From Xestospongia bergquistia (taxonomy: Eukaryota; Porifera; Demospongiae; Haplosclerida; Petrosiidae), in the NCBI GenBank assembly GCA_963965975.1, contig OZ014421.1:1617001-1681000 (forward strand): a DNA stretch of 64,000 bases, in the 5' to 3' direction. Positions 3,001 to 60,073 of the stretch are shown here, piece by piece. How positions within the stretch are numbered: the stretch's first letter is position 1; the number at the start of each line of letters is the position of its first letter. A program made the position numbers and the translations under genes. The notes under the pieces are model-generated. The model was given only the letters and a program-made list of their open reading frames with translations. It made no database searches and was not told where the DNA came from.

Positions 3001-3102
3001 CTCCAGCCGATATCATCATCAGCTGTTATCACATATTCATTAGTGCCAGAGTTACGTGAATCTCTACTTAATGATGAATACAACATTTCTTTTATGAAAT
3101 GA
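2..3102 (+). pseudogene. Beta-helix/multi-TM receptor-like gene, subfamily I copy 1 (5' end outside window, one frameshift)
   Basis: The reading frame is open from base 2, so the 5' end lies outside the window; no start codon is visible. The product matches the 39571..43137 gene almost residue for residue: beta-helix repeats (Asn-rich, with motifs such as CTIYNNTAYYGSG), a Cys-rich stalk with NRSGLLCGQC, then 8-9 hydrophobic segments and a tail ending NISFMK. The frame breaks at the T-run 1173..1176, which has four T where the paralogue has five, so the two halves are read as 2..1207 and 1144..3102. It is either a recent pseudogene or a homopolymer sequencing error, since both halves are otherwise undamaged. 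The role is unknown; a cell-surface receptor or adhesion function is inferred from architecture. Confidence 0.8.
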
Positions 3103-7346: not shown

Positions 7347-7445
7347 AGGCTTCGGTTATACAACTTATTTATCTTCTTTGTTCTTCAGTTTGACATTAAT
7401 TCTCTATTGTTCTTCTGATCTTTCACTATTGAATTTGCTGTCATC

Positions 7446-10400
7446 ATGAGCTGGTGTCATATCTATTATATAACATCAGTTATACTGTATATCTACAGTG
7501 GATATGTTATTGCTTTTGAGTATTATGTCTCTGCAGCTCCTAATGGAGTACCTTGTCCTCGTACTCACCTACCTTGTCACAAACTCTCCCACTATACTGA
7601 TGACTATACATCTTACTTCACTGATGACACAATTTTTTACTTCCTAGAGGGAACTCATATTCTACAAGATACATTGGAGATCAGTGGTGTAAGTAATATA
7701 ACTCTACAGGGACTGGGTCATATAGAACAAGGCTTTCATGAGACAGTTATGCAATCTACCTCAATAATAAGGTTAAATGGTTACAACAGTAGTTATATAC
7801 TATTTACTTATAGCACAGATATTGTATTGAAATTGTTAACAATAGCAAACTATGGATTTAATTTAAATTCAAATTTTATTGATAGCTTAATCTTTGGTGA
7901 GATCAATAATGTCACATTGGAATGGGTATCAGTCCAGAATGGTTCTGGTAAAGGACTCGTTATTTTCAATGCTTTTGATGTGTTGATCACTAATTGCAAT
8001 TTTGCTAATAATGGATATCCTAATAGTGTTGTAGCCAATGCACATATTTCCTATGATGACCAGACTAAAAGAATGTCCAGAATTAATATTGTGAAATCGA
8101 ATTTTACACTGGGCTTTGGAACTGGCTTGATTTTGTTATATCATATTAATAACGAAATTGAAGTTGAGGTAATCATTGAAAATAGTGAGTTTTCACATAA
8201 TAATGGTCAGTATGCAGGAGGAGTGTACATTATACTCAATTCTGGAAGTGGTAGTATTGCATTTAGTAATTGTACTATATACAACAATTCCTATTGGAAT
8301 GAAGGAGGAGGAGGAGTTTACATTTATTTGCAAAATGGAAATGGTAGTATTGAGTTTAGTAATAGCACTATATACAACAATACTGCTCAGAATGGAGGAG
8401 GAGTGTACATTTATTTATATAATGGAAGTGGTAGTATTGAGTTTAGTAACTGCAATATTTATAACAATACTGCATACTATGGATCAGGAGTGTTCATTAT
8501 TACTTTGCTTTCTGCTTCAAAGGTCAGGGTTTTTTTTACAAATGTTTCATTTCATTTCAATAAAGTATCAAAGATGCTTAACAAATATCAATCTGCTATG
8601 TTACTTATGAATATTGAAAATGTTCTTTTGGACCAAATTGATATTAGTAACCATAACACAAGTGGTTTAGTGAGTATCAATAGCCCAATAATGTTTGATG
8701 GACATAGTACATTTGTAAACAATTCTGGCATTTATGGTGGAGGCATTGCTTTATATGGACTCTCCCAAATATTGCTAAATCAGAACACAAACATATCATT
8801 TGCCAATAATCATGCTAGTGAGTCAGGTGGTGGAATCTTTGTATCAAAAGTTGTTAGTACCATTGACCATACATTTTGTACCTTTAACATTTTTTCTTAT
8901 TATAATAATGGTTTTAAGCCAATGTTATATTTTGTCAACAACACAGCTGATATATCTGGTGATGTATTGTATGGAGGTGAAATATCTGATTGTGTGAACT
9001 TTGACTTTGATCACCAATTTCATTATCCTCAACAAACAGGTCTATCAGTAGTGTCATCAAATCCTATCCAAGTGTGTTTTTGTGAATCAAACATACAAAA
9101 TTGCTCTATTACAAACTTCAATATAACTGCAATACCTGGAATTAATGTCAATATATCACTAGCTACTGTTGGTAATAAAGATGGCTTAACAAAGGGTGTA
9201 ATAAAATTGACAACATTCGATAATTCATCATCTACTGTACAAACTGACAATACTAGACTAAATGCAACTTGTATCAATGTAACCTTCAAGATAACAGCAA
9301 ACCCTTCATTGAACACATCAAAAGTCTATGTAACACTTGAAGGTTTACTCAATGGACTTTCACCTGATGACTATGCTAAAGACATTGAAGTTAGCATTGA
9401 GTCTTGTCCAATTGGGTTTCCATTACTAAATGATGCTTGCAGTTGTAGAGCTGAATTAAATACATCTTCAATAACTTGTGATATTAACACTCAAATTATA
9501 ACTAGAAATGGTGATATGTGGATTGGTTATAAAAATGACTCAGACTGTCTTATTGTTTATCCTCTTTGCCCCTTTGATTACTGCAACAATGGAAAAATTT
9601 ATTTTAACATCACCTCTCCTGATCCTCAGTGTCTTTACAATCGATCTGGCATACTCTGTGGACAATGTAGTGATGGTCTTAGTCTCATGTTAGGTTCGAA
9701 TTATTGTGGACAATGTACTAATAACTACATAGCTCTTATCATTCCATTTGCTGTGGCTGGTATAGCACTGGTAGCTTTTATCATTACTTTGAACTTAACT
9801 GTGTCTGTGGGTACAATCAATGGACTTATATTCTATGCTAATGTTGTCAAAATATATGACCCCATCTTCTTTCCCAATGGTCCTGTGAAAGTTCTTAGTC
9901 AATTTATTTCCTGGCTCAATCTTGATCTGGGTATTGAGACTTGTTTCTTTGATGGTATGGATTCTTGCAGTAAGATGTGGCTACAGTTTATCTTTCCAGG
10001 CTATGTTTGGTTTCTACTAATACTCATTATAATATCATCACAATATTCCAGCAAAGTGGTTCGACTTGTGGGTTCACATGCAGTTCCAGTACTAGCCACT
10101 ATGATCCTTCTCTCTTATACCAAACTGATACGTACTGTCTTCCAAGCCCTTTATTTTGTCAATATTCAGTGTAATGGTAATAATAATGTGACATTATTGA
10201 GGTGGTATATTGATGCTAATGTCCAATATGTAGGAGGTTATTGTCATCTACCATTGTTCCTGTTCTCACTGGCTGTACTCATTTTACTTATTATTCCATA
10301 CACCTTCTACCTTCTTACTATACCATTATTTGAAGGACCTCTATCAAAATACATGCGTTGCTGCCAAAAGTATATGAAGCCTTTCTTTGATGCATATGGA

Positions 10401-10943
10401 GGTCCATATAAGGACAAGTGTCGTTTTTGGACTGGATTTTTACTACTTGTTCGTGTTGTCTTAGCACTAGTTGTGTCTCTAGATACTAAGACTACTATAA
10501 GTTTGGATGTGTTAACATCTCTCTTATTTGTTATGATATCAATGTACTTCCTTTTGACAGGAATATATCGACATTTACCTTTGGCTTGTCTAGAGATGTC
10601 CTTTTTTCTTAATCTCATGATTATAGCTTATGTGAATGCACAAACCTACAAAACATCAAATTCAAGGCAAGTGTTAAGTGTTGCTTTAGTATCAGTATCA
10701 TTTATAGTATTCTGTGGTATTATCTTCTATCATGTTTGGGATCATCTGTCTAAATCTTGTTTGAAACGACCATTTGCAAAAATCAAGAGGGCATTTAAGA
10801 AACCTCCACCAAATCCTATTACTGAAGAAGCAGAAGTTCCTTTAATGTGTCCTGGATCCCCTGCTTTAATATGTGAAACTAGTTCAGTGACTGTAGTATC
10901 AGTAGTAATGAGACGAGAATCACTACTGGATGATGATGACTAA
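7446..10943 (+). CDS. Intact beta-helix/multi-TM receptor-like protein, subfamily II (1165 aa)
   Basis: A single uninterrupted exon. The start is the ATG of MSWCHIYYITSV, shared by five paralogues and followed by a hydrophobic signal peptide (about residues 1-24). Residues about 70-530 form Asn/Gly/Ser-rich repeats of parallel beta-helix (PbH1/Pmp-like) type. They include about three 29-residue units of the GGGVYIYLYNGSGSIEFSN kind near residues 255-345, and many N-glycosylation sequons. A Cys-rich stalk follows (CPFDYC..., NRSGILCGQC, CGQC; about 700-758). Hydrophobic segments lie near 761, 786, 845, 880, 935, 995, 1024, 1046 and 1077. The tail ends RRESLLDDDD. It is probably an extracellular-facing plasma-membrane protein; ligand and signalling are unknown. 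Its promoter and post-gene block match other copies, which supports an active gene. Confidence 0.9.
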   Translation: MSWCHIYYITSVILYIYSGYVIAFEYYVSAAPNGVPCPRTHLPCHKLSHYTDDYTSYFTDDTIFYFLEGTHILQDTLEISGVSNITLQGLGHIEQGFHETVMQSTSIIRLNGYNSSYILFTYSTDIVLKLLTIANYGFNLNSNFIDSLIFGEINNVTLEWVSVQNGSGKGLVIFNAFDVLITNCNFANNGYPNSVVANAHISYDDQTKRMSRINIVKSNFTLGFGTGLILLYHINNEIEVEVIIENSEFSHNNGQYAGGVYIILNSGSGSIAFSNCTIYNNSYWNEGGGGVYIYLQNGNGSIEFSNSTIYNNTAQNGGGVYIYLYNGSGSIEFSNCNIYNNTAYYGSGVFIITLLSASKVRVFFTNVSFHFNKVSKMLNKYQSAMLLMNIENVLLDQIDISNHNTSGLVSINSPIMFDGHSTFVNNSGIYGGGIALYGLSQILLNQNTNISFANNHASESGGGIFVSKVVSTIDHTFCTFNIFSYYNNGFKPMLYFVNNTADISGDVLYGGEISDCVNFDFDHQFHYPQQTGLSVVSSNPIQVCFCESNIQNCSITNFNITAIPGINVNISLATVGNKDGLTKGVIKLTTFDNSSSTVQTDNTRLNATCINVTFKITANPSLNTSKVYVTLEGLLNGLSPDDYAKDIEVSIESCPIGFPLLNDACSCRAELNTSSITCDINTQIITRNGDMWIGYKNDSDCLIVYPLCPFDYCNNGKIYFNITSPDPQCLYNRSGILCGQCSDGLSLMLGSNYCGQCTNNYIALIIPFAVAGIALVAFIITLNLTVSVGTINGLIFYANVVKIYDPIFFPNGPVKVLSQFISWLNLDLGIETCFFDGMDSCSKMWLQFIFPGYVWFLLILIIISSQYSSKVVRLVGSHAVPVLATMILLSYTKLIRTVFQALYFVNIQCNGNNNVTLLRWYIDANVQYVGGYCHLPLFLFSLAVLILLIIPYTFYLLTIPLFEGPLSKYMRCCQKYMKPFFDAYGGPYKDKCRFWTGFLLLVRVVLALVVSLDTKTTISLDVLTSLLFVMISMYFLLTGIYRHLPLACLEMSFFLNLMIIAYVNAQTYKTSNSRQVLSVALVSVSFIVFCGIIFYHVWDHLSKSCLKRPFAKIKRAFKKPPPNPITEEAEVPLMCPGSPALICETSSVTVVSVVMRRESLLDDDD

Positions 10944-12005: not shown

Positions 12006-14329
12006 ATGGCTGCAACCAGTCCAGGTATGACTGAATATTTTAATCAGTTATCCAATTGCTATTGTGTGTTAGGTTATTATGTACCTAAAAAGAGGTCAAG
12101 TCACTCCACACATATAGTAGGTGACTACCTCTACATGTGGGGTGGTGATATAGATGGTCTCCCTATAGCACATGATACCGAATACAAACAGAGGATGACC
12201 TCTGTTATTGAGGTATTTCACTTAACATCTGGTATGTGGGAACAACAACCTACCAATGGGAAACCTCCATTGGGTGTTTGGGGCTATGCATCTACAGTTA
12301 TTGGTAAAAGGATCTACTACTTTGGAGGGTATTGCAGTCATGACAATTGTCGTCATAATAGTCTCAACTCATTAACAACTGACTCACTTACTTGGAGTGA
12401 GCTGTTTCCTACAAATTCAAATATGGGTCCGATGATGAAATCATCTAGTGAAATGATACCTCTTAAATTCAATGATGAGGATAATCTACTGGTTTTTGGT
12501 GGCATTGGTATACGTCCTGCGTTTCCACAACTTGGTGCTCAATATAGTGATAAGGGAATAATAGGTAGATATGTTCGAACCAATGAACACCACTACTATC
12601 AGTTATCCAGTGGTAAGAAGATTAATATATCATCATATTAATATACTTATACATCAAGTACTATTTTATTACCACTTGTATTTCAGGTAATTGGATTGTA
12701 CCAGATATAATTGGAAAAGGGCCACCTCCTTGTTATATCTTCACTCTCACAAAACTACCTAACAATAGAGCTATGTTATTTGGTGGTTTAACTCCTAATG
12801 GTCCTGATAACACAGTGTTTATAGCAAAATGTATGAAGACTGCAGTGGTGAGTACAATATGTAATAAGTTGAAATATTTAGTAATTGTATAATATTATGG
12901 ACAAATTATGTTTGTTGTTTTGAAATTGTTAAACAACATGAAGTTATATTGGAATGTCATTACAAATAACAAATATTAGGAACTATTTACTAATGACTTA
13001 ATGATCTCATCGTACATTACTTTAGTCAATTTAGAGTTTATGGAGATAAAAAAATGTTTTTATCGACAAAGTTTGTTTGGTATTAGTAGTATTAGTAACA
13101 GAGATAATCATCTTTACAATTGTAGTAATAGATGTAACAATTGTTAGTTTGTCTGATCAAATGTAGTATGACCAAATATGGTAAAAGTATTTGTACATTC
13201 ACTGAATGTGCTAACCATATGTCATGTCATGACAATCACTCTATCTACATGTATGTAAAGTACTTCCTCATTATATCTGCTAAACATTAATGGTAGCAAT
13301 CATTAATGAGTTATGTCACAGTCAATAAATTTATAAATGTAAACCATTTATCTCTGTTAATGCAACAAATATTTAATCATGTTTTTCTGTACATCAATGA
13401 TAGTGCTTTTTTTATCATTTCCTGTTTATAGTTCAAATAACAACATTAGTTTATATGATATTTTATTAAAATAAGAATATGCTAATATACTAATCAGTCA
13501 CAACCCAGTCTGTTAAATTATCAAACAAAACACTTGTAGTTTGAGAAATTCCATTAATAGTTGATGTTACCATCATGCAGGTAATACTAAAACTTACAAC
13601 TGGAACTTTGCTTGAAACTCTTGTAAAACCTTGAAATATTGTTTACTAGTTAATATACTTTGTTTTTTAGCTATAGCAGAAGACTCAGAATAATTCTAGA
13701 AGCTTTAATTATTCATAATTTTATATTTAAATGATGCCATTGATTATAAGACACCCTCTAATAGTAAGTGTTTCTGTTATTGATTGATAGTGATACAGAT
13801 ATTGCAGCTATTATTCAAAAAAACTAGTTTACTAAAAGCATACAAACTAATAAAATTACTACTACATTAAATGTGAATGATGTTAACTTGACTATTACAT
13901 ACCCAGCATTGGCAGATGTTTTGTCAACCACTTCAAAAGCCAATGAATTGGCCTCAGTGTACACAATGTCATGCTGCTATTATGATTGATGACGTACATA
14001 TCATTGTGGTGGGTGGACGTGACAAATACTCTAGTAATATTGTTGATAGCTGGTTATTTAACAGTGATACGACAACATGGAAGAAGATAAATAATCCACT
14101 TCCCATATCAGTGAATTGGCCTCAGAAAAGATGGCATCATGCTGCCACTCTAATCAGTGACCTAAATGTGATGGTGGTTGTTGGATCTGTTATACCTGAC
14201 AGCTGGTTATTTAACATTGGTACAAAGACATGGACAAAGTTTAGTTACTTATTAGTCATAATTCAGATATTAAAGACTGTACATAAGCACTTATGTTCAT
14301 GTTTAAAGTCAGTTCATACAAAGTTATAG
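12006..14329 (+). CDS. Kelch-repeat protein, truncated paralogue (about 380 aa)
   Basis: Inferred exons are 12006..12024 (MAATSPG start), 12073..12612, 12687..12847 and 13907..14329. The first intron (48 bases) has no stop and could be retained. Kelch blades are visible as HSTHIVGDYLYMWGG, YASTVIGKRIYYFGG, NNRAMLFGG and VHIIVVGG. The last exon holds two tandem Kelch repeats where paralogues have one (333 against 177-180 bases), an internal duplication. Its splice donor, GTTAGT in paralogues, reads TTTAGT at 14240, so the frame runs on for 29 codons to a stop. The coiled coil and kinase of the paralogues are missing. It may be a secreted-free propeller scaffold or a decaying gene; the phases of all other junctions agree, so the gene model itself is well supported. 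Confidence 0.7.
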
Positions 14330-15378: not shown

Positions 15379-15480
15379 AGAGAAAGAGCTCTTCAAGAGG
15401 ACCTTCAAACAAAAGAAAGACAACTACATCGGGAGCTTCAAGAGAAACAACAAACACAATGTGATAAATTAAACACAATC
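15376..15480 (+). pseudogene. Coiled-coil exon fragment
   Basis: Reads RERALQEDLQTKERQLHREL and then a short Gln-rich end. This matches the coiled coil at 25986..26330. It begins abruptly inside a unit with no acceptor of its own, so it is a rearrangement product that may once have linked the Kelch gene to the TM/death-domain exons downstream. Confidence 0.55.
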
Positions 15481-16153: not shown

Positions 16154-17257
16154 TGTCAACTAAATTTATTTTTCCCATTTTAATTGTCATATCCCTTGTA
16201 GCAATAAGTATCTATAATAGTAAGTTATCTATAAATCTAATACTATGATACAAAATATTATACTACATATTGTAAGTTATCAGGATCATTCATAATAATA
16301 TATTATGTGCAAAATGTCTCTTTTAACTTTTAACATGAAGTTATACATTCATCTCTAAAAGTTAATGTTTTCTGTGATATGTATGTTCCTAAACAATAAC
16401 CATATTATATCATCCATGTATATTGTACCAGTAAGGATATTATTTTTTACATTAAAACATGTATTATACTATAATGTTTATTACACACACATTTCTTGAT
16501 AACATTGGCATTAATATAAGTGTTTTTGTTGAAGTCACATTTTTCTGTCTTCCAGGGACTATAAATGATAACAATGTGAAAGAAGTTAAAAAAAGTGAGT
16601 TCATGATAAATGTATTATTTAAATTGTTGTTTTAACTTAAGCATTAATTATGTTAAATGTAAATTTATTAGATGTGATAGTTTTGACATCATACATTTGG
16701 TGTTCACTGTATTGCTTAGTGAAAGTGTTTTTCAGTATAATTATTGTCCTATTATCTGATGTTGTACAAAAATCAGACCCTTCTAGTGAAGTTGTGTAAC
16801 ATAATCCTTATCTAAATGAATACCATATAAGGTATTAGGAAGTTTTTTTGAAGGCCTATAACAATAGGCGCCAATTGTAATTTAAAGTAACATTCTTTTT
16901 ACAATTTGTTTCACATACTTCTATAAAGGAATAATATTTTCAATGGACAAAATGGACAATCCATCAGAGCACTCTTCTTGTCATCAAATAAAGAGCCATA
17001 ATGAAGTTGTTCTGGTGCTTAAAGATAAGATATCAAGCCCAAAGATATTTGCATCATGTCTGAACGTGTCTAAGGTTGAAGCTGATATTGCTCACAAAGA
17101 CATCCATTGTGTAAATGAAGTTCTAATAGAGATTCTAAAATCATGGTATGAAAGTCATGAAGAAGATCCTTGTTGGGAATACATAGTTAAAGCATTAAAA
17201 TGTGTAGGTGAAAATCATTTGGCTAATGATGTTTATAAAATATGTTGTCTAGACTAG
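16154..17257 (+). CDS. Transmembrane helix plus death-domain protein, 3' exons
   Basis: Three phase-compatible exons: 16154..16219, 16556..16594 and 16929..17257. The first encodes a membrane helix (STKFIFPILIVISLVAISIY), the second a short basic linker, and the third a death-domain-like fold of about 80 residues. The latter shows the family hallmarks: a Trp in SWYESHEEDPCWEYIVKAL and the VGENHLANDVY helix. Death domains mediate homotypic assembly in apoptosis and innate immunity. The 5' part is uncertain: by analogy with 24781..26360 it should be Kelch repeats plus coiled coil, but here only a fragment (15376..15480) is left. These exons are intact, unlike the copy at 26434..27532. The assignment to the death-domain superfamily rests on pattern only. 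Confidence 0.6.
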
Positions 17258-17950
17258 TTTTTTTACTTCTTATTTTGTTTGTGATTTATATTGTTATAGG
17301 ACACATGATAATAATTTTTTGTTTTTTTTTATTATAGTTATTATAATATTGTTGAATTCATACTATTTTGTATGACAAAATGTGTAATAGTATCATTAGT
17401 ATAAAAGACAATTTTTTTGAAATGCACCAATCTGATTTTATTATACAGTTTAGCTAAATTGTAAACTGTAATTTAAACACTTGCATGTGCTTGAGAAATT
17501 CATTTAAGATATAGTAATGCTCAATCTTTTTATGAATTTAGTTGGCTTTTTTTAACTTTTGAATATCAACGTTCATCAAATAAAGCACATTATTACATAA
17601 CTATATAAACTAATACATATATTCATAACCAAATTTTTAATTGAACACTAGCTGGGATAATTTGACCAGAAACGTTTAAAAATTATGTTATATTTTGAAG
17701 GTAGAGTTAAAAGGTTTATGTTCTCTTTGCGGCCCTTGACCAAACAATGTTGGGACTTGATCTTGAACCATTCCAGTGATTAGAAAGAAATGTGTCAATG
17801 TTGTGGATATCAGTGATAATTGAATCTATAAAAATTGCAGACAAAAATAATGTTAATAGAAAAAATTAACATTAGAAGTAATTGTTTTGTTATGTATGTC
17901 ATAATAAAATGTAGATATTAATTTACTAAATATAATATATTCTTTCTTAG
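17258..17950 (+). other. Intergenic
   Basis: AT-rich; matches 27533..28218 of the second tandem unit. No ORF or RNA gene recognised. Confidence 0.5.
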
Positions 17951-18116
17951 TGAATTAGGTCGTATTAAAACATTAGATACTGAACAATTATATTAGAGAG
18001 ATTTCAATATTGAAGGAAGTTCAACATCCTAATGTTGTGATGTAAGTGAAAGTGTCTATTGTGAAGTGAATGGAATGTGATTTACTTACACTAATAGAAT
18101 GACTAGAAATAATGTC

Positions 18117-18118
<2 letters not shown>

Positions 18119-18153
<35 letters not shown>
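18119..18153 (+). repeat. (CT)n microsatellite acting as polypyrimidine tract
   Basis: About 17 CT units lie directly before the CAG acceptor of the second CDK-like exon. In the other copy this tract has expanded and eaten into the exon. Confidence 0.9.
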
Positions 18154-18156
<3 letters not shown>

Positions 18157-18690
18157 CAGACTTGAGGAGATAATTCATCAAGATTCCAAGTTCTATCTTG
18201 TTTTTGAATTCATGAGTATGGATTTAAAGAAATATCTTGACACTATTTCATCTGGACAGTATATTGATCCAGTATTATTAAAGGTAATGATCACAGTAAT
18301 AGTGGATACATGGTTTGATAAATGGATACATGGATTGACAAATAGATAGATGGATCAATAGATAAATGTATTAATGGACAAACATATAAATGATTATATG
18401 GATGTATAGATAGGTGACCAATCAACAATGACCATACATTATATTAGTTATATTTATTGTAAATGTTCTATTGTTAATAATATTATTAACTGCATTATTT
18501 CTTATATTAATAGAGTTATACTTACAAGAACCTTAAAGGTACAGTTTTCTGTCATTGTCGACGTATTATTCATCGTGACTTAAAACCACAAAATCTGTTA
18601 ATTGATGCTAAAGGAGCTATTAAACTGGCCAACTTTGGACTTGGACGAGCCTTTGGTATACCATTTCGTGCATATACCCATGAGGTATCA

Positions 18691-18754
<64 letters not shown>
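18691..18754 (+). repeat. (CT)n(CA)n compound microsatellite
   Basis: Ten CT units followed by about twenty CA units inside a CDK-like intron. Confidence 0.95.
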
Positions 18755-18755
<1 letters not shown>

Positions 18756-19503
18756 ACCCACTTTAAAATTACACAGGTAGTAACACTGTGGTACAGGGCC
18801 CCTGAAGTCTTACTTGGTTCAGCACGATATTCTTGTCCCATTAATGTATGGAGTATAGCTTGTATATTTGCTGAAATGTCTAATAAAAAACCTCTGTTTC
18901 AAGGAGACTCTGAAATTGATCAACTCTTCCGAATTTTCAGGTTTATCAAACAGATTTTATAAACTGGTTTAATTAGTTCCACTGTAGGATTTTGGGTACA
19001 CCTAATGATACAACATGTCCTAATGTAACTGAACTACCAAATTTTAAACCAAATTTCCCTAAATAAATTGGAAAGACAATTAAACAAGTTTGTCCTCGAC
19101 TTGATGCAGCAGGTTGTGACCTGTTAATGGTAAGTTATTGTTCAATGATCCTTTTTAATTCTAGTGTCTTTAATATCAGCAAATGTTGGTTTATAATCCT
19201 GGGAAGAGAATGTCAGCAAAGACTGCTATGCAACATCCTTATTTCATTGATTTAGACAAGTCAGGTCTACCTGATACAGTACAGTCTTAAGAACATATTA
19301 TAACATTAATATTTTATGTATCATTAACTGTATACTGTATTAACACACACTAATACATCTGAATGGAATAAATTATAATAAATAAAATAACTTGTATAGT
19401 CTAAGATTACTTGTTTTATGATGGAACTTGTAAGTAGAGAGTTGTCCTCAATTATAATAACTGAGAACACATTATTAAGGGCGTGTCTATTTTGAAAGAA
19501 AAG

Positions 19504-22500
19504 CTGGCTACGTCTAGATCAGGTTTGACTACATTATTATAATAGTTATCTATTGTTATGTGTGTGTGTGTGTCATGTTCTACAGATTATTATGTACCTA
19601 CAAAGAGGTCTCATCACTCCACACATATAGTGGGTGACTACCTCTACATGTGGGGTGGTGGTATAGATGGTCTCCCTAAGGTACATGATAATGAAGTCAA
19701 ACAGAAGATGACCTCTGTTATTGAGGTATTTCACTTACTAACTGGTAGATGGGAACAACGACCTACCAATGGAAAACCTCCACTGGGTGTCTATGGCTAT
19801 GCCTCAACTGTTATCAGTAACAGGATCTACTATTTTGGAGGCTATTGTAATCATGACCAGTGTCGTTACAATAGTCTCAACTCATTAATAACAGATTCAC
19901 TTACATGGAATGAACTGTTCCCAACTAATCCAAGTACAGGTCCAATGATGAAGTCATACTGTGGGATGATATCACTTACATTCAATAAAGTTGATTATCT
20001 ACTGGTAGTTGGTGGATATGGTCCACGTCCTACCTCTCCACAATCTTGTGCTCAGTATAGTGATAAGGGAACATTTGGTGGTAATGTTCGTACTAATGAA
20101 CACCACTATTATCAGTTATCGACTGGTAAGAAGATCAGTATATCATGTTATTAATACATTATATATCAAGTACAATTTTATAACTGTTTGTATTTCAGGT
20201 CAGTGGATAATACCAGAAATTACTGGAGAATGTCCACCTCCTTGTAGTAACTTCACTCTTACATCACTACCTAATAACAGAGCTCTGTTATTTGGTGGTT
20301 ACACTCCTAATGGTCCTATTAACACTGTGTATATTGCTCAGTGTACAAAGACTGCAGTGGTGAGTACAATATGTATTAAGTTAAAGTATTTAGTTATTGT
20401 ATAATATTGTGTAGTAATCAAGTTTAAAGTTTGATATTATTAAATGAACTAAATTTATAGTATATAATGTCTTTATATTATTATTAGGAACTGTTTTATT
20501 AATAAACAAGTGATTTATTGTTTGTTAATATTTCTTTAATCAACTTAGAGGTTATATTGATAACTGAAACATTCCTTTAGTCAACTATATAGTGATACCA
20601 TATTTCATTGACTAAATGTCACTCTTGAATAGTAGCCTCCCTTTTTGTATATCAGTGAAATTGATGATGAGCTTGAATAAATGATACAATGACTGCTTTA
20701 GAAAATTGTCTATTGATAATTTATAATTGATTATTAATATTAATATTATGTATATAATAATATTTATAATATTATATTAATTAATATTAAGTTGTTCTGT
20801 TAAGTGAAAAACACACAAAAAATATAATTTTTATTTTTTAAAAATGTTTATTCAGTCAGGAAATAACTGTAGTTTTATAAAGTCCTTAAAACAAATGAGT
20901 TCACAATGAGGTAATATTTGTTTAAAATTTTTGTCAAAGCTTGATCTATCATTTACTAACTGATACACAAAGTTTAAAGCTATTGTTTATCAGGAATGTT
21001 CAGAATCACTTCTAACTCTAGAAACTTTAATAATTCACAATTATATTTTAAATAGTGACCTCAAACAGTAAATTTCCCTATTGTTGTTCAATATTAAAAT
21101 AGATGTCCCAGGTCTTATTAAAGGAAATATTGTAACTAAATTAAAATCCACATAAACTATAAAATGAACAATATTCTTAAACATTTCCCAGTATACAGTA
21201 TTAATTACTGCTATGTTAATTGTATAATATGTTAACTTGAATATTATCTACCCAGCACTGGGAGAAGATAAGTGAACCACTTCACGAATCAGTGAATTGG
21301 CCTAAGAGGAGAGATTGTCATGCTACCACTATTATCAGTGACCTACATGTGATGATGGTGGGTGGACATTATGGATTCGTCAGTATTGCTGACAGCTGGT
21401 TATTTAACATTGATACAAGGACATGGACAAAGGTTAGTTACTAGTTATCATGTGACCTAACACTAACACAAAGTGAGTTAATGTCTATGATCTACAGTAT
21501 GAGGAGATATAATAAAGTGTGACTATTTGAACTTTGACCTCTAAAAATAACCCTCATCTATAGAAAATTTCTAATTAATAATAGTTATTGTTTTTATGAC
21601 CTGGTTTTATACCTGTAGTCCTGACACTATAGTATGTTAACATTTATGATAGTACACTGTAAAAAGTTATTATTATAAAAATTATTTGGTTATACAGGTT
21701 GCAATTACAAACTTATTTTTGTTAGAAAAGTAAACATAATACTGTTTTCATTACTAATGTCCTACTATGTATGTAGCTACATAACCATTAATTACATAAT
21801 ACATTAGTAATCAAAGTAGTATTAAGGTTACTTTTTATATATGCAACCCACATAACCATCTATTGGTTAAATTAACTAATCAATTTTTACAGTGTATAGT
21901 CTATTGATATATCTGATTTGTTTATAGTTATAATTCACTTATTAAAGACTGTACATAAGTACTTATGTTCATGTTTTAAAGTATTGTAACATGTCAACTC
22001 TACCAGTTCATACAAAGTTATAGTCTGTTACTAGAGTACATGTATCCACTGATGTTACATGTATAATGACTAGTTTTGTAGTAATATCATAACATCATTA
22101 TTATAATGTCATATGGTACACTATATTCCATCTTATAGCTCAATATACCAGTCTCAGTGACTAAGGGATGGGGCCACTCCCTCTCATTATGGAATGTGTC
22201 ACCTGCCACTGTATGGGTAATACAATTTGGAGGATTTGAAAATTTTGATAAACTTAATGATACTACAGTGATAGAACTTAGTAAGTACTGTCTATTGATG
22301 ATAGTATTTGTTATATAGTACACACACACATTATCATTATTATCACAGTATGATATAGGAGTATTGACACAGTAACTGTTTATATTACAAACTAGTCTCA
22401 TAACTCAATACTATTGTAACATACCATATCTCTCACTGTAGTATGTAATGATGACCAGTGGACTGTAGGAGATGACCTGACATCTACTGAAGAATATCAA

Positions 22501-23331
22501 CTTAAGCTAATACGACAACTTAAAGTTACCAACAAAGAGCTACAACAACAAGTTCAACAGTTACAAGAACAGTCTCTCTGGGTTGTGATGAAGGAGGAGA
22601 TTAAGATGACTGACGAAGTTCTTGGGAAAGGAGGTTGGGGAGAAGTCAAGGTGGCCAAATTTCGTGGCCTTAGAGTAGCTGCCAAATGTCTTCATGAAGT
22701 TATCATGTCACCATATAACATATCAGTTTTTACACGAGAAATGGAGATTGCTGCTCGAGTACGTCATCCCAATCTCCTTCAGTTCATAGGAGCCACTCGA
22801 GTGGGTACTCCTATCATCCTCTCAGAATTAATGCCAACTAGTCTTCGCAAAGAGCTAGAAGCTGGTCCTCTACCCTATCCTGCTATTCTGACTATCAGTC
22901 AAGATATAGCCTGTGGTCTCAACTATCTCCACCTCTATAATCCAGACCCTATACTACATAGAGATGTCAGCACTGCTAATGTTCTGTTACTGCCAATTGA
23001 TGGTGGGTGGAGAGCCAAGGTATCAGACTATGGTTCAGCTAATCTTCAACCAATGATTGGTCATACAGTCAATCCAGGTAATCCAATTTATTCTGCTCCA
23101 GAAGCTGGTGTTCCAAAAGACCATTCTCCTGCAATGGATGTTTACAGTTATGGTGTTGTCTTGATTGAAATGATGATCTGTCGTATTCCTGAGGTAGCTC
23201 AGAGACAACTTCATATTAACAGTATTAGACGACCAATGTTTAAAGCTCTTATTGGACGATGTTTGAAGGAGAATCGTAGAGAACGTCCGACAATGTCAGA
23301 GATCATAACAGACTTCAATGAAACCATTTAA
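19504..23331 (+). CDS. Kelch / coiled-coil / TKL-type protein kinase (about 642 aa)
   Basis: Exons with matching phases: 19504..19522, 19586..20125, 20199..20359, 21256..21432, 22139..22280 and 22442..23331 (1929 bases in frame). Residues 1-345 contain five or six Kelch blades (HSTHIVGDYLYMWGG, RIYYFGGYC, YLLVVGG, RALLFGG, HVMMVGG, VWVIQFGG). A short coiled coil (TNKELQQQVQQLQEQ) follows, then a kinase domain from about residue 402. All catalytic motifs are present: GKGGWGEV loop, VAAKCL Lys, HRDVSTANVLL, DYG for DFG and APE. It is probably an active cytoplasmic Ser/Thr or dual-specificity TKL kinase whose propeller recruits partners. Odd point: the first exon begins CTG where paralogues have ATG (a four-base loss, GCAT), and no in-frame ATG lies upstream before a stop. 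Translation may start at CTG or further in. Confidence 0.85.
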
Positions 23332-24780: not shown

Positions 24781-25548
24781 GTACTGGGAGAAGGTAAGTG
24801 AACCACTTCACAAATCAGTGAATTGGCCTCAAAGTAGATGTGATCATGCTACAACTGTTACAGTGACCAACATGTGATGATAGTGGGTGGATATCCTACT
24901 ATATTGCTGACAGCTGGTTATTGATACAAAGACATGGACAAAGGTTAGTTACTAGTTATCATGTGACCTAACACTAACACAAAGTGAGTTAATGTCTACG
25001 ATCTACAATATGAGGAGATATAATAAAGTGTGACTATTTGAACTTTGACCTCTGAAAATAACCCTCATCTATAGAAAATTTATAATTAATAATAGTTATT
25101 GTTTTTATGACCTGGTTTTATACCTGTAGTCCTGACACTATAGTATGTTAACATTTATGATAGTATAGTCTATTGATATATCTGATTTGTTTATAGTTAT
25201 AATTCAGTTATTAAAGACTGTACATAAGTACTTATGTTCATGCTTTAAAGTATTGTAACATGTCAACTCTACCAGTTCATACAAAGTTATAGTCTGTTAC
25301 TAGAGTACATGTATCCACTGATGTTACATGTATAATGACTAGTTTTGTAGTAATATCATAACATCATTATTATAATGTCATATAGTACACTATATTCCAT
25401 CTTATAGCTCAATATACCAGAGTCAGTGACTAAGAGATGGAGCCACTCCCTCTCATTATGGAATGTGTTACCTACCACTATATGGGTAGTACAATTTGGA
25501 AGATTCTATGGTGGTAAACTCAATGATACTACAGTGATGAACTTAGTA
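24781..25548 (+). pseudogene. Kelch exon remnants of a Kelch/coiled-coil/death-domain gene
   Basis: Two exon remnants: about 24781..24940 (YWEKVSEPLHKSVNWPQ...) and 25408..25548 (LNIPESVTKRWSHSLSLW...). The first has lost one base near 24860 and seven bases near 24920. The second has lost one base in the GTGATAGAACTTA stretch. Donors and acceptors are kept, so decay is recent. The first three exons of a full Kelch gene are missing. Confidence 0.75.
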
Positions 25549-25582
25549 AGTACTGTCTATTGATAATAGTATTTGTTATTAT

Positions 25583-25585
<3 letters not shown>

Positions 25586-25614
<29 letters not shown>
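25586..25614 (+). repeat. (CA)n microsatellite
   Basis: About fourteen CA units within an intron; the homologous site at 22321 has only four or five. Confidence 0.9.
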
Positions 25615-25615
<1 letters not shown>

Positions 25616-25725
25616 TATCAGTATTATCACAGTATGATATAGGAGTATTGACACATTAACTGTTTATAGTACAAACTAGTCTCATAACTCAATACTATTA
25701 TAACATACTATATCTCTCACTGTAG

Positions 25726-26360
25726 TATGTAATGATGACCAGTGGACTGTAGGAGATATAATAACTAACCTGACATCTACTGAAGAATATCAACTTAAGC
25801 TACAACAGAAGAGACATGGACAACCTCAACTTATTGTCCAATCTCCTACACATCTTAAACCTTCATCTTCATCACATCAAGAGTCACAAGAGAAAGATAG
25901 AGAAATTCAATGTTTAACACGACAACTTGAAGTTACCAACAAAGAGCTACAAGATACCAAACAACAGCAGATAGATATGACAAGAGCTCTTCAAGAGGAC
26001 CTTCAAACAAAAGAAACGCAACTACAGCAATTTGTTATATACTCACAACAAACTCATGCTACACTCCAACAACAGCTACAAGATAGTAAAGATAGAGAAA
26101 GAGCTCTTCAAGGGGACCTTCAAACAAAAGAAACGCAACTACAGCAATTTCTTATAGACTCACAACAAACTCAAGCTACACTCCAACAACAGCTACAAGA
26201 TAGTAAAGATAGAGAAAGAGCTCTTCAAGGGGACCTTCAAACAAAAGAAAGACAACTACAGCAACTACATCAAGAACTTCAAGAGAATCAACAAACACAA
26301 TGTGAGAAATTAGAGGCAGCATGCAACCTCCCTCTAATATTAAATACTACAATATTTTAA
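25726..26360 (+). pseudogene. Coiled-coil exon with 39-residue tandem repeats
   Basis: This exon is open from the acceptor at 25725 to a TAA at 26358..26360. It starts like the kinase paralogues (ICNDDQWTVGD) and becomes a Gln/Glu/Lys coiled coil. Residue blocks starting ALQEDLQTKETQLQQF repeat with a period of 39 residues (units at 25986..26102 and 26103..26219, then a partial unit). The heptad-rich pattern suggests oligomerisation. The frame is intact, but the exons on both sides are damaged, so it is classed with the pseudogene. Confidence 0.7.
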
Positions 26361-26433
26361 CATTATAACATTTATATATATGTGTGTGTGTTGTAAACTC
26401 TACAAATTATTATGGTTATTTTTTCTATTATAG

Positions 26434-27532
26434 TGCCAACTAAATTATTTTTCCCATTTTAATTGTCATTTCCCTTGTAGCAATAAGTACATATAATGGT
26501 AAGTTATCTATAAACCTAATACTATGATACATAATATATACTTCATATTGTAAGTTATCAGGATCATTCATAATAATTTATTATGTGTAAAATGTCTCTT
26601 TTAACTTTTAACATGAAGTTATGCATTCATCTCTAAAAGTTAATGTTTTCTGTGATCTGTATGTTCCTAAACAATAACCATATTATATCATCCATATATA
26701 TTGTACCAGTAAGGATATTATTTTTTACATTAAAACATGTATTACACTATAATGTTTATTACACACACATTTCTTGATAACATTGGCATTAATATAAGTG
26801 TTTTTGTTGAAGTCACATTATTCTGTCTTCCAGGGACTGTAAATGATAACAATGTGAAAGAAGTTTAAAAAAGTGAGTTCATGATAAATGTATTATTTAA
26901 ATTGTTGTTTTAAGTTAAGCATTAATTATGTTAAATGTAAATTTATTAGATGTGATAATTTTGACATTTGGTGTTCACTGTATTGCTTAGTGAAAGTGTT
27001 TTCAGTATAATTATTGTCCTATTATCTGATGTTGTGCAAAAATCAGACCCTTCTAGTCAAGTTGTGTAACATAATCGTTATCTAAATGAATACCATATAA
27101 GGTATTAGGAAGTTTTTTTGAAGGCCTATAACAAGAGGCGCCAATTGTAATTTAAAGTAACATTCTTTTTACAATTTGTTTTCACACACTTCTATAAAGG
27201 AATAATATTTTCAATGGACAAAATGGACAATCCATCATAGCACTCTTCTTGTCATCAAATAAAGAGCCATAATGAAGTTGTTCTGGTGCTTAAAGATAAG
27301 ATATCGAGCCCAAAGATATCTGCATCATGTCTGAACATGTCTAAGGTTGAAGCTGATGTTGCTCACAAAGACAACCATCGTGTAAATGAAGTTCTAATAG
27401 ATATTCTGAAATCATGGTATGAAAGTCATGTTGAAGATCCTTGTTGGGAATACATAGTTAAAGCATTAAAATGTGTAGGTGAAAATCATTTGGCTAATGA
27501 TGTTTATAAAATATGTTGCCTAGACTATTTTT
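26434..27532 (+). pseudogene. Transmembrane/death-domain exons, decayed copy
   Basis: Paralogous to 16154..17257. Exon remnants lie at about 26434..26500, 26834..26872 and 27200..27532. Lesions: one T lost in the membrane-helix exon (AAATTATTT against AAATTTATTT); a TAA in the linker exon (GTT TAA); TAG replacing Glu near 27237; and the normal stop lost (TAG to TAT), so the frame from 27286 runs to 27609. The death-domain body (SWYESHVEDPCWEYIVKAL, VGENHLANDVY) is still well conserved. Confidence 0.75.
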
Positions 27533-28219
27533 TTACTTCTTATTTTGTTTGTGATTTATTTTGTTATAGGACACATGATAATAATTTTTTGTTTTTTTTT
27601 ATATTATAGTTATTATAATATTGTTGGATTCATACTATTTTGTATGACAAAATGTGTAATGGTATCATTTGTATAAAAGACAATTTTTTGAAATGCACCA
27701 ATCTGATTTCATTACACAGTTTAGCTAAATTGTAAACTGTAATTTAAACACTTACATGTGCTTGAGAAATTCACTTAAGATATAGTAATGCTCATTCTTT
27801 TTATGAATTTAGTTTGCTCTTTTTAACTTTTGAATACCAACGTTCATTAAATAAAGCACATTATTACATAACTATATAAACTAATACATATATTCATAAC
27901 CTAATGTTTAATGGAACACTAGCTGGGATAATTTGACCAGAAACGTTTAAAAAATTATGTTATATTTTGAATGTAAAGTTAAAAGGTATGTTCTCTTTGT
28001 GGTCCTTGACCAAACAATGTTGGGACTTGATCTTGAACCATTCCAGTGATTAGAAAGAAATGTGTCAATGTTGTGGATATCAGTGATAATTGAATCTATA
28101 AAAATTGCAGACAAAAATAATGTTAATACAAAAATTAACATTAGAAGTAATTGTTTTGTTATGTATGTCATAATAAAATGTAGATATTAGTTTACTAAAT
28201 ATAATATATTCTTTCTTAG
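27533..28219 (+). other. Intergenic copy of 17258..17950
   Basis: High similarity to the first unit; no gene recognised. Around 27700..27800 a piece is repeated at 28730..28790. Confidence 0.5.
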
Positions 28220-28385
28220 TGAATTAGGTTGTATTAAAACAATAGATACTGAACAATTATATTAGAGAGATTTTGATATTGAAGGAAGTTCAACATCCTA
28301 ATATTGAGATGTAAGTGAAAGTGTCTATTGTGAAGTGAATGGAATGTGATTTACTTACACTAATAGAATGACTAGAAATAATGTC

Positions 28386-28457
<72 letters not shown>

Positions 28458-29035
28458 GGATTTAAAGAAATATCTTGATACTATTCTATCTGGACAATAT
28501 ATTGATCCAGTATTATTAAAGGTAATGATCACAGTAATAATGGATACATGGTTTGATAGATGGATACATGGATTGACAAATGGATAGATGGATCAATAGA
28601 TCAAATGTATTAATGGACAAATATATAAATGAATGGATAAATGAAAGTACATACAGATGACCAATCTACAATGACCATACATTATAGTAGTTATATTTAT
28701 TGTAAATGTTCTATTGTTAATAATAATGTAAATTAAACACTTGTATGTGCTTGAGAAATTCACTTAAGATAATTATAGTAATAATCATTAAACCAAATTT
28801 CCCTAAATGGATTGGAAAGACAATAAAACAAGTTTGTCCTCAACTTGATGTAGCAGGTTGTGACCTGTTAATGGGGAGTTATTGTTCAATGATCCTTTTT
28901 AATTCTAGTTGTTCTTAATATCAGCAAATGTTGGTTTATAATCCTGGGAAGAGAATGTCAGCAAGGACTGCTATGCAACATCTTTATTTCAGTGATTTAG
29001 AGAAGTCAGGTCTACCTGATACAGTACAGTCTTAA
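28220..29035 (+). pseudogene. CDK1-like kinase pseudogene, copy B (deleted)
   Basis: Remnants: 28220..28310 (first block), 28451..28521 ([19 protein letters not shown] part), 28790..28873 (KPNFPKWIGKTIKQVCP) and 28925..29035 ([19 protein letters not shown]). The HRD, DFG and APE exons are deleted. The donor after 28873 reads GGGAGT instead of GTAAGT. Unlike copy A it keeps Trp in FPKWIG. Confidence 0.85.
28388..28451 (+). repeat. Expanded (CT)n microsatellite
   Basis: About 32 CT units. It runs straight into the truncated CDK-like exon; the acceptor and about 50 bases of exon found in copy A are gone. Confidence 0.95.
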
Positions 29036-29226: not shown

Positions 29227-32200
29227 ATGTCTAGATCAGGTTTGACTACATTATTATAATAGATATCTATTGTTATGTGTGTGTGTGTCATGTTCTACAG
29301 ATTATTATGTACCTACAAAGAGGTTTGGTCACTCCACACATATAGTGGGTGACTACCTCTACATGTGGGGTGGTGCTATAGATGGTCTCCCTAAGGTACA
29401 TGATAATGAAGTCAAACAGAGGATGACCTCTGTTATTGAGGTATTTCATTTACCAATTGGTAGATGGGAACATCGACCTACTAATGGAAAACCTCCACTG
29501 GGTGTCTTGGGCTATGCATCAACTGTTATCAGTAAAAGGATCTACTATTTTGGAGGCTATTGTAATCATGATCAGTCTCGTTACAATAGTCTCAACTCAT
29601 TAATAACAGATTCACTTAGATGGAATGAACTGTTCCCAATTAATCCAAGTATGGGTCCAATGATGAAGTCACACTGTGGAATGATATCACTTGCATTCAA
29701 TAAAGTAGTGGATTATCTACTGGTAGTTGGTGGATATGGTCCACATCCTACCTCTCCACAACCTGGTGCTCAGTATAGTGATGTTTATGGCGATGATGTT
29801 CGTACTAATGAACACCACTATTATCAGTTATCCAGTGGTAAGAAGATCAATATATATCATGTTATCAATACATTATATATCAATTACAATTTTATAACTG
29901 TTTGAATTTCAGGTCAGTGGATAGTACCAGAAATTACTGGAGAATGTCCACCTCCTTGTTATTCCTTCACTCTTACATCACTACCTAATAACAGAGTTCT
30001 GTTATTTGGTGGTAGTACTCCTAATGGTTATAATAACACTGTGTATATTGCTCAGTGTACAAAGACTGCAGTGGTGAGTACAATATGTATTAAGTTAAAG
30101 TATTTAGTTACTGTATCAGTGAAATTGATGATGAGCTTGAATAAATGATACAATGACTGCTTAACAAAATTGTCTATTGATAATTTATAATTGATTATTA
30201 ATATTAATATTATATATATAATAATAATATGTATAATATTATATTAATTAATATTAAGTTGTTCTGTTAAGTGAAAAACACAAAAAAAGATAATTTTTTA
30301 AAAATGTTTATTCTGTCAGGAAATAACTGTAGTTTCATAAAGTCCTTAAACAAATGAGTTCACAATGAGGTAATATTTGTTTAAAATTTCTGTCAATGCT
30401 TGATCTATCATTTACTAACTGATACACAAAGTTTAAAGCTATTGTTTATCAGGAATGTTCAGAATCACTTCTAACTCTAGAAACTTTAATAATTCACAAT
30501 TATATTTTAAATAGTGACCTCAAATAGTAATTTTCCCTATTGTTGTTCAATGTTATAATAGATGTCCCAGGTCTTATTAAAGGAAATATTGTAACTAAAT
30601 TAAAATCCACATAAAATATAAAATGAAGAATATTCTTAAACATTTCCCAGTATACAGTATTAATTACTGCTATGTTAATTGTATAATATGTTAACTAGAA
30701 TATTATCTACCCAGCACTGGGAGAGGATAAGTGAACCACTTCACAAATCAGTAAATTGGCCTAAGAGTAGATTGGGTCATGCTACCATTGTTATCAGTGA
30801 CCTACATGTGATGATGATAGGTGGAATGGATAAATCATTAAAATGTATTGCTGACAGCTGGTTATTTAACATTGATACAAAGACATGGACAAAGGTTAGT
30901 TACTGGTTATCATGCGACCTAACACTACCACAAAGTGAGTTAATGTCTATGATCTACAATATGAGGAGATATAATAAAGTGTGACTATTTGAACTTTGAC
31001 CTCTGAAAATAACTCTCATCTATAGAAAATTTCTAATTAATAATAGTTATTGTTTTTATGACCTGGTTTTATACCTGTAGTCCTGACACTATAGTATGTT
31101 AACATTTATGATAGTATAGTCTATTGATATATCTGATTTGTTTATAGTTATAATTCAGTTATTAAAGACTGTATATAAGTACTTATGTTCATGTTTTAAA
31201 GTATTGTAACATGTCAAGTCTACCAGTTCATACAAAGTTATAGTCTGTTACTAGAGTACATGTATCCACTGATGTTACATGTATAATGACTAGTTTTGTA
31301 GTAATATGATAACATCATTATTATAATGTCATATAGTACACTATATTCCATCTTATAGCTCAATATACCAGAGTCAGTGACTATGAGATGGGACCAATCC
31401 CTCTCGTTATGGAATGAGTCACCTACCACTGTATGGGTAATACAATTTGGAGGATATTGTAATGGTAAACTCAATGATACTACAGTGATAGAACTTAGTA
31501 AGTACTGTCTATTGATGATAGTATTTGTTATATAGTACACACACACATTATCAGTATTATCACAGTATGATATAAGAGTATTGACACATTAACTGTTTAT
31601 ATTACAAACTAGTCTCAAAACTCAATACTATTGTAACATACTATATCTCTCACTGTAGTATGTAATGATGACCAGTGGACTGTAGGAGATGTAATAACTA
31701 ACCTGACATCTACTGAAGAATATCAACTTAAGCTACAACAGAAGAGACATGGACGACCTCAACTTACTGTCCAATCTCCTACACATCTTCAACCTTCATC
31801 TTCATTACATCAAGATTTACAAGAGAAAGATAGAGAAATTCAACTTTTAACACGACAACTTGAAGTTACCAACAAAGAGCTACAAGATACCAAACAACAG
31901 CAGATAGATATGACAAGAGCTCTTCAAGAGGACCTTCAAACAAAAGAAAGACAACTATATTAACTACATCAAGAACTTCAAGAGAAACAACAAACTCAAT
32001 CTTATCTTGAACGTGAGCACAGAAATAGAGAAAGGTTACTTCAACAACAACTACAAGATCAAGAAGAGAGAAAAAGACGACAGTTACAGGATAGTCAAGA
32101 GAGAGAAAGAGTACTACGTCAAGAGTGTGATAATCTTCACCGAGAACATGATGATTATCGTCAACAATGTGACAATATTGAACAAGATCTTCGTCAACAA

Positions 32201-33043
32201 CTCCAAGAGTCAACCACTGCTCTTCAACAAAGACAACATACTATAGCCACTCTTCAACAACAAGTTCAACAGTTACAACAACAGTCTCACTGGGTACTGA
32301 GGAAGGAGGAGATTGAGATGACTGAGGAGATTCTTGGCAAAGGAGGTTGGGGAGAAGTCAAGGTGGCTAAATTTCGTGGCCTCAGAGTGGCTGCCAAATG
32401 TCTTCATGAAGTTATCCTGTCACCATATAACATATCAGTTTTTACACGAGAAATGGAGATTGCTGCTCGAGTACGTCATCCTAATGTCCTTCAGTTCATA
32501 GGAGCCACTAAAGTGGGTAGTCCTATCATCCTCTCTGAACTAATGCCAACTAGTCTTCGCAAAGAGCTAGAAGCTGGTCCTCTACCCTATCCTGCTGCTC
32601 TGACTATCAGTCAAGATATAGCCTGTGGTCTCAACTATCTCCACCTCTTTAAACCAGACCCTATACTACATAGAGATGTCAGCACTGCTAATGTCCTTCT
32701 TCAGCCAATTAGTGGTGGGTGGAGAGCCAAGGTATCAGACTATGGTTCAGCTAATCTTCAACCAATGATTGGTCATACAGTCCATCCAGGTAATCCAGTT
32801 TATTCTGCTCCAGAAGCTGGTGTACCAAGAGACCATTCTCCTGCAATGGATGTTTACAGTTATGGTGTTGTCTTAATTGAAATGATGATCTGTCGTATTC
32901 CTGAGGTAGCTCAGAGACAACTTCATATTAACAGTATTAGACGACCAACGTTTAAAGCTCTTATTGAGCGATGTTTAAAAGAGAATCGTAGAGAACGTCC
33001 GATAATGTCAGAGATCCTAACAGACTTCAATGAAACCATTTAA
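29227..33043 (+). CDS. Kelch / long coiled-coil / TKL-type kinase with an in-frame stop
   Basis: Exons: 29227..29239 (ATG, MSRS), 29301..29837, 29913..30073, 30715..30894, 31359..31497 and 31659..33043; phases agree throughout (805 codons). The Kelch blades match the 19.5 kb gene. The coiled coil is far longer here (about 195 residues, Gln/Glu/Arg-rich). The kinase retains GKGGWGEV, VAAKCL, HRDVSTANVLL, DYG and APE. A TAA at 31961..31963 lies in the coiled coil, where the 26.2 kb paralogue reads CAA (TATTAA against CAGCAA). As read, the protein would end at 444 residues, before the kinase. Either this is a recent null allele, or the kinase is made separately, or the region is spliced around. 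The undamaged kinase frame argues for recent change. Confidence 0.8.
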
Positions 33044-33099
33044 TAGTATACAATAATATAGTGTGTTTTATAATTTTAGTAGTAAGGTTATTATAATAG

Positions 33100-33273
33100 C
33101 CACATACTTAATGTTTAAGGTTTAGTGATAGGATCAGTATTAAAATATGGTGATCTCAGACTGTCACACTGTACTTCTTTAGGACAATGTCATTAGTAGA
33201 GGTGTGTCCTCAATATAAAGGTCATTAAAGTATTACTAGTATGGACCTAGAACAAGTGTCCTGAACTTCAGAC
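33100..33273 (+). other. Shared Kelch-downstream block
   Basis: Matches 23935..24111 and 15140..15314; contains one arm of the TCAGACTGTCACACT inverted repeat. Noncoding. Confidence 0.5.
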
Positions 33274-44510: not shown

Positions 44511-44580
44511 ATGCTAAGGAACGTGAAAGCTATAAACAGTTTGGGATGATTGAAGAACCAGATGCTAAGAAACTTAAACT

Positions 44581-59976: not shown

Positions 59977-60073
59977 GCTGCAGTAATACAACTTAATTAT
60001 CTTGTTTGGTTATCAGTTTGATATTAATTCTCTATTGTTCATCTAATCCTTCACTATTGAATTTGCTGTCATC

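Follow-up and report, generated by a model that had tools for sequence, protein, structure and literature searches.

A stretch of 64,000 nucleotides from the sponge Xestospongia bergquistia (the window; positions 1617001-1681000 of contig 11, in a genome of 146 Mb and 21 contigs) holds members of a modular gene family in which a Kelch domain and a coiled coil are followed by one of several ends, and in which these ends have been exchanged at the coil. Four such Kelch genes or units (A, B, C and D; Table 1) lie between 11979 and 33043, where genes B and D consist of Kelch exons 1-4 and a single exon coding for coil and kinase, and units A and C lead to a membrane-helix exon, a linker exon and a divergent death domain of the window type (DD'). 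We give a probability of roughly 0.6 to the reading that this family joins a variable pocket to coil-driven signalling and serves, most probably inside the cell, to recognise microbes or self that is damaged or foreign.

A shared scaffold with exchanged ends

Three separate break points, all in or near the end of the coil exon, have been found between related genes. In the window, Kelch exons 3-4 with their introns and the beginning of the coil agree at 91% between unit C (24239-26024) and gene D (30196-31957). The two coils last match at 26301 in C and 32000 in D, and from 26316 onwards unit C is 95.6% identical to unit A (16038-17699). Since base 26301 directly precedes a GT splice donor, the break lies at an exon edge, and the kinase genes read on through the same point. 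An earlier note on this DNA had placed the divergence inside the coil, at about 26303 against 32002, which these positions bear out; its statement that the kinase genes and 24781..27532 share Kelch exons and coil start nearly base for base holds for the second half of the Kelch domain, but unit C has no match to Kelch exons 1-2 within the window. On contig 1, the pair L093 (kinase) and L094 (death) is 93-95% identical over the Kelch exons, much of the introns and the coil frame; beyond 2432/3517, close to where that frame ends (2442/3524), the two sequences part. On contig 5, the pair L095/L096 is 87-93% identical, up to a stop inside the coil exon at 2397/4067.

Genome-wide searches scored at most 150 candidates each, so that the counts given here are lower bounds. 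Downstream of 165 places with Kelch exon 1 (within 9 kb, same strand), the next listed element is a kinase in at least 105 cases, a canonical death domain in at least 34 and DD' in at least 4, with nothing listed in 15 and another Kelch exon in 7. Both ends occur, among the matches listed, on contig 1 (10 kinase, 11 death) and contig 5 (15 kinase, 19 death). All 150 Kelch rows entered these counts, together with 133 of 150 kinase rows (17 weaker ones left out), 19 DD' places from 21 of 28 rows (without 7 weak ones, and with two copies that were split counted as one each), a final Death set of 68 of 76 rows (8 weak ones left out) and further rows outside the contig-11 array, 15 of them new; an initial tally of DD' order took 31 of 150 Pfam Death rows.

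Repeated change of ends is also seen in a tree of Kelch exon 1, on which the kinase/death/DD' label needs 17 changes (minimum 2; shuffled mean 28.6) and the starred branches force at least seven changes for the kinase label, the bootstrap of this tree not being settled. The tree has 77 rows for 75 of the 165 places (40 kinase, 31 death, 4 DD'; L005 and L078, and L010 and WIN_E, are doubles), and excludes 22 places without an assigned end, four assigned on other contigs and 64 kinase places on contig 11. Over 158 columns, unit A agrees at 98% in its Kelch exon with L012, a locus followed by a kinase end. If Kelch exons were converted from one gene to another, the outcome would mimic moving tails; as read from the sequences, either process is a recombination of scaffold and ends. 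The three break points, the end counts and the repeated tail changes give good support to the claim that the Kelch/coil scaffold takes interchangeable ends, which have been exchanged repeatedly at the coil, by recombination or conversion among related genes.

At the level of sequence, the scaffold is a Kelch propeller of six blades, for which no obvious signal peptide can be read, and then a coiled coil rich in glutamine. Behind it the gene leads into a TKL kinase, into a canonical death domain, or into a membrane helix with a divergent death domain. The assignment as a six-blade propeller follows the Kelch consensus, in which all six blades have a double glycine, and the repeats, which score over the cut-off. 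No signal peptide was seen, the start exons of units A and D, L003, L008 and L010 being short and polar. The kinase domain of the type in genes B and D (Pfam 9.8e-30) has as nearest solved relatives TAK1 and plant CTR1, both members of TKL, and by these relatives the kinase ends are classed as TKL kinases; the kinase lysine, HRD and D-Y-G motifs can be read in the sequence. In the commoner class of Kelch-death genes, a second coil frame occurs together with a death domain that Pfam recognises (Pfam Death E 2.4e-10 and 2.3e-9; 40.8 and 37.7 bits, cut-off 22.6, in the two members scanned). Of the 68 canonical death matches, 33, or roughly half, are not directly preceded by a Kelch match. A kinase and a death domain in one open chain were found in no locus read, where splicing between neighbours could still join them.

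An open copy with the window-type tail, L001, lies about 190 kb before the window (contig 11, 1424370-1429154) and has eight exons with AG/GT borders in one open frame of 635 residues, in the order Kelch, coil, helix, linker, DD'. Its Kelch domain scores 123.1 bits (cut-off 50), its coil has a heptad signal equalled by 20 of 5000 shuffles, and its helix has a mean hydropathy of 2.3 over 19 residues (next best stretch 1.2); Pfam (E up to 0.001) gave nothing on the rest of the protein, and no BTB part was matched. Its start-exon motif has CTG at the place of the ATG of L003, L008 and L010, which makes any assignment of its translation start tentative.

The ends are also found outside Kelch genes. 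The coil-kinase end stands behind LRR-Roc-COR-kinase-WD40 (L080; LRR, leucine-rich repeat), an ankyrin exon (L084), an exon for a PARP catalytic domain, accompanied by a KH-like part that stays under its cut-off (L082) and a stretch without Pfam match (L079), and the coil-death end stands behind LRR repeats on contig 3 (L075 by Pfam, L074 by resemblance); single-gene status is seen only in L080, with one open frame. This frame (contig 8, 7284000-7290500) has 1871 residues and the LRRK order of domains, followed by coil and a second kinase. At L085 (contig 4, 5530800-5534800), a frame that by eye resembles a hAT transposase lies upstream of a coil-death tail without Kelch, and such an element is a possible means of moving tails. 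On contig 5, two Kelch-death pairs (6786988/7325407 and 6796956/7315562) are identical in their exon-1 rows although their members point in opposite directions and are separated by about 0.5 Mb, through an inverted duplication or an assembly effect.

Variable sites of the propeller

In exons 1-4 of both groups analysed (contig 11, and contigs 1 and 5), the highest per-site entropy often falls at the residue after each blade's double glycine and at the two residues immediately preceding the H, Y or F (in the third blade, G) with which the next strand begins. At the 18 sites defined in this way the mean entropy is 1.66 vs 0.47 (contig 11) and 2.07 vs 0.72 (contigs 1 and 5), values reached by 0 of 20000 permutations in each group; not all of the sites are high, with ranks spanning 1-106 of 335 and 2-118 of 345. 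The contig-11 set comprised 19 rows for exon 1, including two doubles, and exons 2-4 were represented by 11-19 matches each. At nine sites of exon 1 the ratio of nonsynonymous to global synonymous rate is 1.39 and 1.42, against 0.41 and 0.44 elsewhere (18 contig-11 rows, one a double, and 46 others; rows with more than one stop excluded). The far rows L023, L037, L039, L041, L042 and L073 were excluded from both analyses.

The ligand-holding residues of KEAP1 include Tyr334, Ser363, Arg415, Arg483, Tyr525, Ser555, Tyr572 and Ser602 (PMC6891428). By an alignment in which such residues stand after a blade's double glycine or after its R, the variable sites of the present family fall where KEAP1 binds ligand. 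The pattern of site variability is the best sequence evidence for the propeller as a diversifying binding part, and supports a sensing pocket. Two points qualify it: the 18-site rule was set once the top-entropy sites were known, and with the local synonymous rate the nine-site ratio is 0.70 and 0.75; this local rate is inflated by the way in which multiple changes were shared out.

KLHDC2 and KLHDC3 bind degrons, and the propeller could in the same way bind self peptides in ordinary signalling or allorecognition, the multiplicity and swaps then reflecting tandem duplication and gene conversion only. This would agree with the nearest solved Kelch sequences (a dynein heavy chain, then KLHDC3 and KLHDC2), with the clustering of the genes and with a ratio of nonsynonymous to synonymous rates (dN/dS) below 1 in the Kelch exons (median 0.38 for exon 1 in 14 stop-free contig-11 copies). 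However, variability at pocket-equivalent sites in two groups is not favoured by a fixed self target, and death-domain and TAK1-like ends fit defence signalling, so that we regard this account as rather unlikely, its allorecognition part keeping some plausibility.

The divergent death domain and the state of the window copies

Structure prediction gives DD' (16929..17257) the six-helix death fold that the earlier note had proposed, a second model having been compared by a second-look structure aligner, and membership of the death domain superfamily fold is supported by this prediction. With a first AlphaFold model, which was poor, the top five Foldseek rows were Fas-FADD or FADD complexes (E 0.29-0.81), and a second aligner ranked a designed protein and spidroin domains first. 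The Pfam Death model does not recognise DD', and profile comparison likewise gives no link to the death family; with phmmer its best match is the Fas death domain (E 0.0036; 0.31 with an alignment as query). Against a profile of nine canonical death domains from the same genome, DD' scores 6.2 bits vs a best of 4.3 among 200 DD' shuffles, a weak link to the family: of seven divergent domains so tested, L090, DD' and L013 beat all shuffles, L087 falls among them, and three are not among the matches listed.

On contig 11, DD' has 12 full-length matches (including unit C, with a stop) and two further copies that are broken; contig 1 adds three relatives, at 2.3 Mb. The helix exon is found only with the window-type tail; no match to it was seen in the commoner Kelch-death loci L016-L022 by similarity, which another short helix exon could escape. 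Being 66 nt long, this exon could be skipped without a change of frame. A DD' relative (70%) in L013 (contig 1, 2282693-2292692) lies downstream of a separate hydrophobic frame and of a frame recalling a CARD; the latter gives no Pfam match, so that a CARD-helix-DD' donor gene is a guess. At L091 (contig 8, 6578000-6578600), a hydrophobic stretch precedes a divergent death-like domain in one frame, in the order of the window tail.

The helix, linker and death exons might instead be alternative last exons of an upstream kinase gene, with Kelch exon 4, which ends in phase 1, spliced either way. In 10 of the 14 contig-11 copies of DD' the nearest listed same-strand upstream element is indeed a kinase match, 2.0-4.4 kb off, several have no intervening Kelch match (L002, L003, L008, L010), and seven of these ten DD' are open. 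This order is expected anyway because kinase genes recur every ~8-10 kb in the arrays; L001 and the canonical class have their own Kelch and coil, and a selection test on six such stop-free copies is weak (p 0.05), which leaves alternative last exons improbable.

In the window itself, both death-domain units look decayed. The three tail exons of unit A have AG/GT borders and phase 1 throughout, but its Kelch exon 3 is doubled with an altered donor, no exon 4 was found, and its coil is reduced to the last part, upstream of which lies sequence elsewhere found behind kinase genes (15139-15378 matches 33098-33337). Unit C has four stops within its match to Kelch exon 3 and further stops in the linker exon and at 27238 in the DD' exon; compared with its relatives, it is also short of 2 nt where exon 4 ends and of 1 nt within the membrane exon. 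The earlier note mentions neither the damage to A and C nor the coil stop of gene D.

That all Kelch-death fusions are dead remnants without function is highly improbable: it draws on the lesions of A and C, the three of 14 contig-11 DD' copies broken in the death exon, the ATG lacking in L001 and the death frame of L022, which stops inside the domain, but it holds for the window copies and not for the family, as the frames of the canonical loci L016-L021, L094 and L096 are open per exon (unspliced) and DD' is conserved against L013 (dN/dS 0.21 for L001, 0.26 for unit A). Median dN/dS in stop-free contig-11 copies is 0.35 for the kinase (10 copies) and 0.42 for DD' (11 copies), and since these values and those against L013 are below 1, the ends are kept, though not strictly. 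Unique changes in DD', likewise in stop-free copies only, are 27 nonsynonymous vs 13 synonymous (p 0.034).

Table 1. Kelch genes and units of the window and their exons (window positions unless stated).
Feature	Position	Strand	Remarks
Unit A, start exon (ATG)	12006-12024	+	borders read by eye
Unit A, Kelch exons 1 and 2	12073-12612, 12687-12847	+	Pfam Kelch_KLHDC2 7.1e-17 (exon-1 frame); borders by eye
Unit A, Kelch exon 3, tandem double	13907..14245	+	usual donor altered; matches 13910-14086 and 14078-14239
Unit A, remnant, end of coiled-coil exon	15380..15460	+	15367-15471 matches 26200-26312
Unit A, 66-nt exon, one hydrophobic helix	16154..16219	+	phase 1-1
Unit A, linker exon, 13 codons (39 nt)	16556..16594	+	phase 1-1
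Unit A, divergent death-domain exon (DD')	16929..17257	+	no Pfam Death match
Gene B, Kelch-coil-TKL kinase	19586..23331	+	Kelch exons 19586-20125, 20199-20359, 21256-21432, 22139-22280
Gene B, coil and kinase exon	22442-23331	+	
Unit C, scaffold	24782..26301	+	Kelch exon 3 (broken), exon 4 (frame lost at end), coil exon 25726-26301
Unit C, tail	26434..27528	+	membrane-helix exon (frame lost), linker exon (stop), DD' exon 27200-27528
Gene D, Kelch-coil-TKL kinase	29301..33043	+	Kelch exons 29301-29837, 29913-30073, 30715-30894, 31359-31497
Gene D, coil and kinase exon	31659-33043	+	in-frame TAA at 31961, inside the coil
Gene E (L010), start of a further Kelch gene running past the window end	62848..64000	+	next kinase exon at contig position 1682365

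Behind each DD' tail of the window lies what by eye appears to be a remnant of a cyclin-dependent-kinase-type gene (17900..19290 and 28180..29035), the second shortened and with DNA shared between the copies. The Kelch genes are flanked by a family of proteins of ~1,200 residues (2..3102, 7419..10943, 39508..43137, 46357..49971, 52364..55977 and 60047..62517), whose second half, judged by eye, contains several hydrophobic segments; two of the copies, at 46357 and at 52364, seem almost the same, although that at 52364 is divided between two frames. Two near-identical frames (44578..45312 and 50594..51385) resemble, by eye, the integrase ends of retroelements.

Relation to known systems and possible function

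In the mechanism that we favour, the propeller would offer a variable binding pocket for many ligands, the coil would gather copies, and the crowded ends would start signalling by phosphorylation or death-domain assembly. Kinase-ended and death-ended partners might co-assemble through the shared coil, and the favoured site of action would be the cytosol, with a TAK1-like kinase or a death-domain assembly as output; signalling and an immune role are suggested here by what is known of the related families. The comparison with innate-immune sensor-effector receptors drawn in the earlier note stands for the modular build; an immune role would fit the pocket variability, the TAK1-like kinase and the death domains, and the helix exon may indicate a membrane version, whose receptor topology, with no signal peptide seen, would be putative.

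The genome yields no fewer than 150 Death matches (none of the 14 control genomes is positive) and at least 95 NACHT matches, 94 of them over cut-off (11 of 14 control genomes positive), which suggests an animal with expanded immune-type families. A NACHT cluster lies at 421-473 kb of contig 11, between two Kelch-kinase clusters. NLR receptors, with NACHT-LRR and death or CARD parts, resemble the present family in their large repertoire, sensing by a repeat domain and death-fold output, whereas here the sensor is a Kelch propeller, the output is C-terminal, and no NACHT match turned up either within those Kelch loci that were read or in the first 10.4 Mb of contig 3, where the LRR-death loci are situated (with 103 of 156 candidates scored for NACHT). 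The fungal NLR-like incompatibility proteins het-d/het-e share propeller repeats and variability at a few positions per blade, but they are WD40 proteins, while here Kelch repeats are found in an animal genome, with several output types and no NTPase seen. In RIPK and IRAK, a TKL-type kinase and a death domain act in one pathway; here they are alternatives on one scaffold, and the loci read place them in separate genes. KEAP1, KLHDC2/KLHDC3 and LZTR1 have the Kelch propeller in common with the family, which differs in its coil and kinase or death end and, in L001, in the missing BTB match.

NLR receptors have been described as expanded in sponges (PMC12909245). The choanoflagellate GPCR-TKL/K and sponge GPCR-TK fusions (GPCR, G-protein-coupled receptor) likewise place kinases on unrelated sensors, with domain swapping proposed, but their sensors are seven-helix proteins, and no death-domain counterpart was seen in the portion of the paper available (PMC12716839). 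In amphioxus, shuffling of innate-immune domains has given new combinations in large families; the word Kelch is absent from that paper, and no matched kinase and death ends on one scaffold were seen in the sections covered (PMC2575513). In a sponge study, Kelch and death-domain genes are listed separately among those changed by microbial molecules (PMC6208332).

No Kelch-death or Kelch-TKL family in animals was found in the open literature by queries of which few demanded both Kelch and a death domain, and to this extent the system deserves the description as little-described given in the earlier note. By their sequences, its members would be modular sensor-effector proteins in a Kelch-based form that we have not seen described. 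More tentatively, and at somewhat less than even odds, they may represent an early animal's undescribed intracellular recognition system of diversifying Kelch pockets, a shared coil and exchangeable outputs (TKL kinase, death domain, membrane-tied death domain), the latter also present in LRR, LRRK-like, ankyrin and PARP-type proteins, with mixed oligomers that would combine sensing and output freely.

Pattern recognition in animals has mostly been described with LRR, lectin, Ig, scavenger or NACHT parts. If the favoured reading is true, a Kelch repertoire with pocket-focused variability and swappable kinase and death ends would add a receptor class and would show module exchange in progress within one genome, and sponge-type animals, which are without adaptive immunity and can hold dense symbionts, would gain a testable recognition system.
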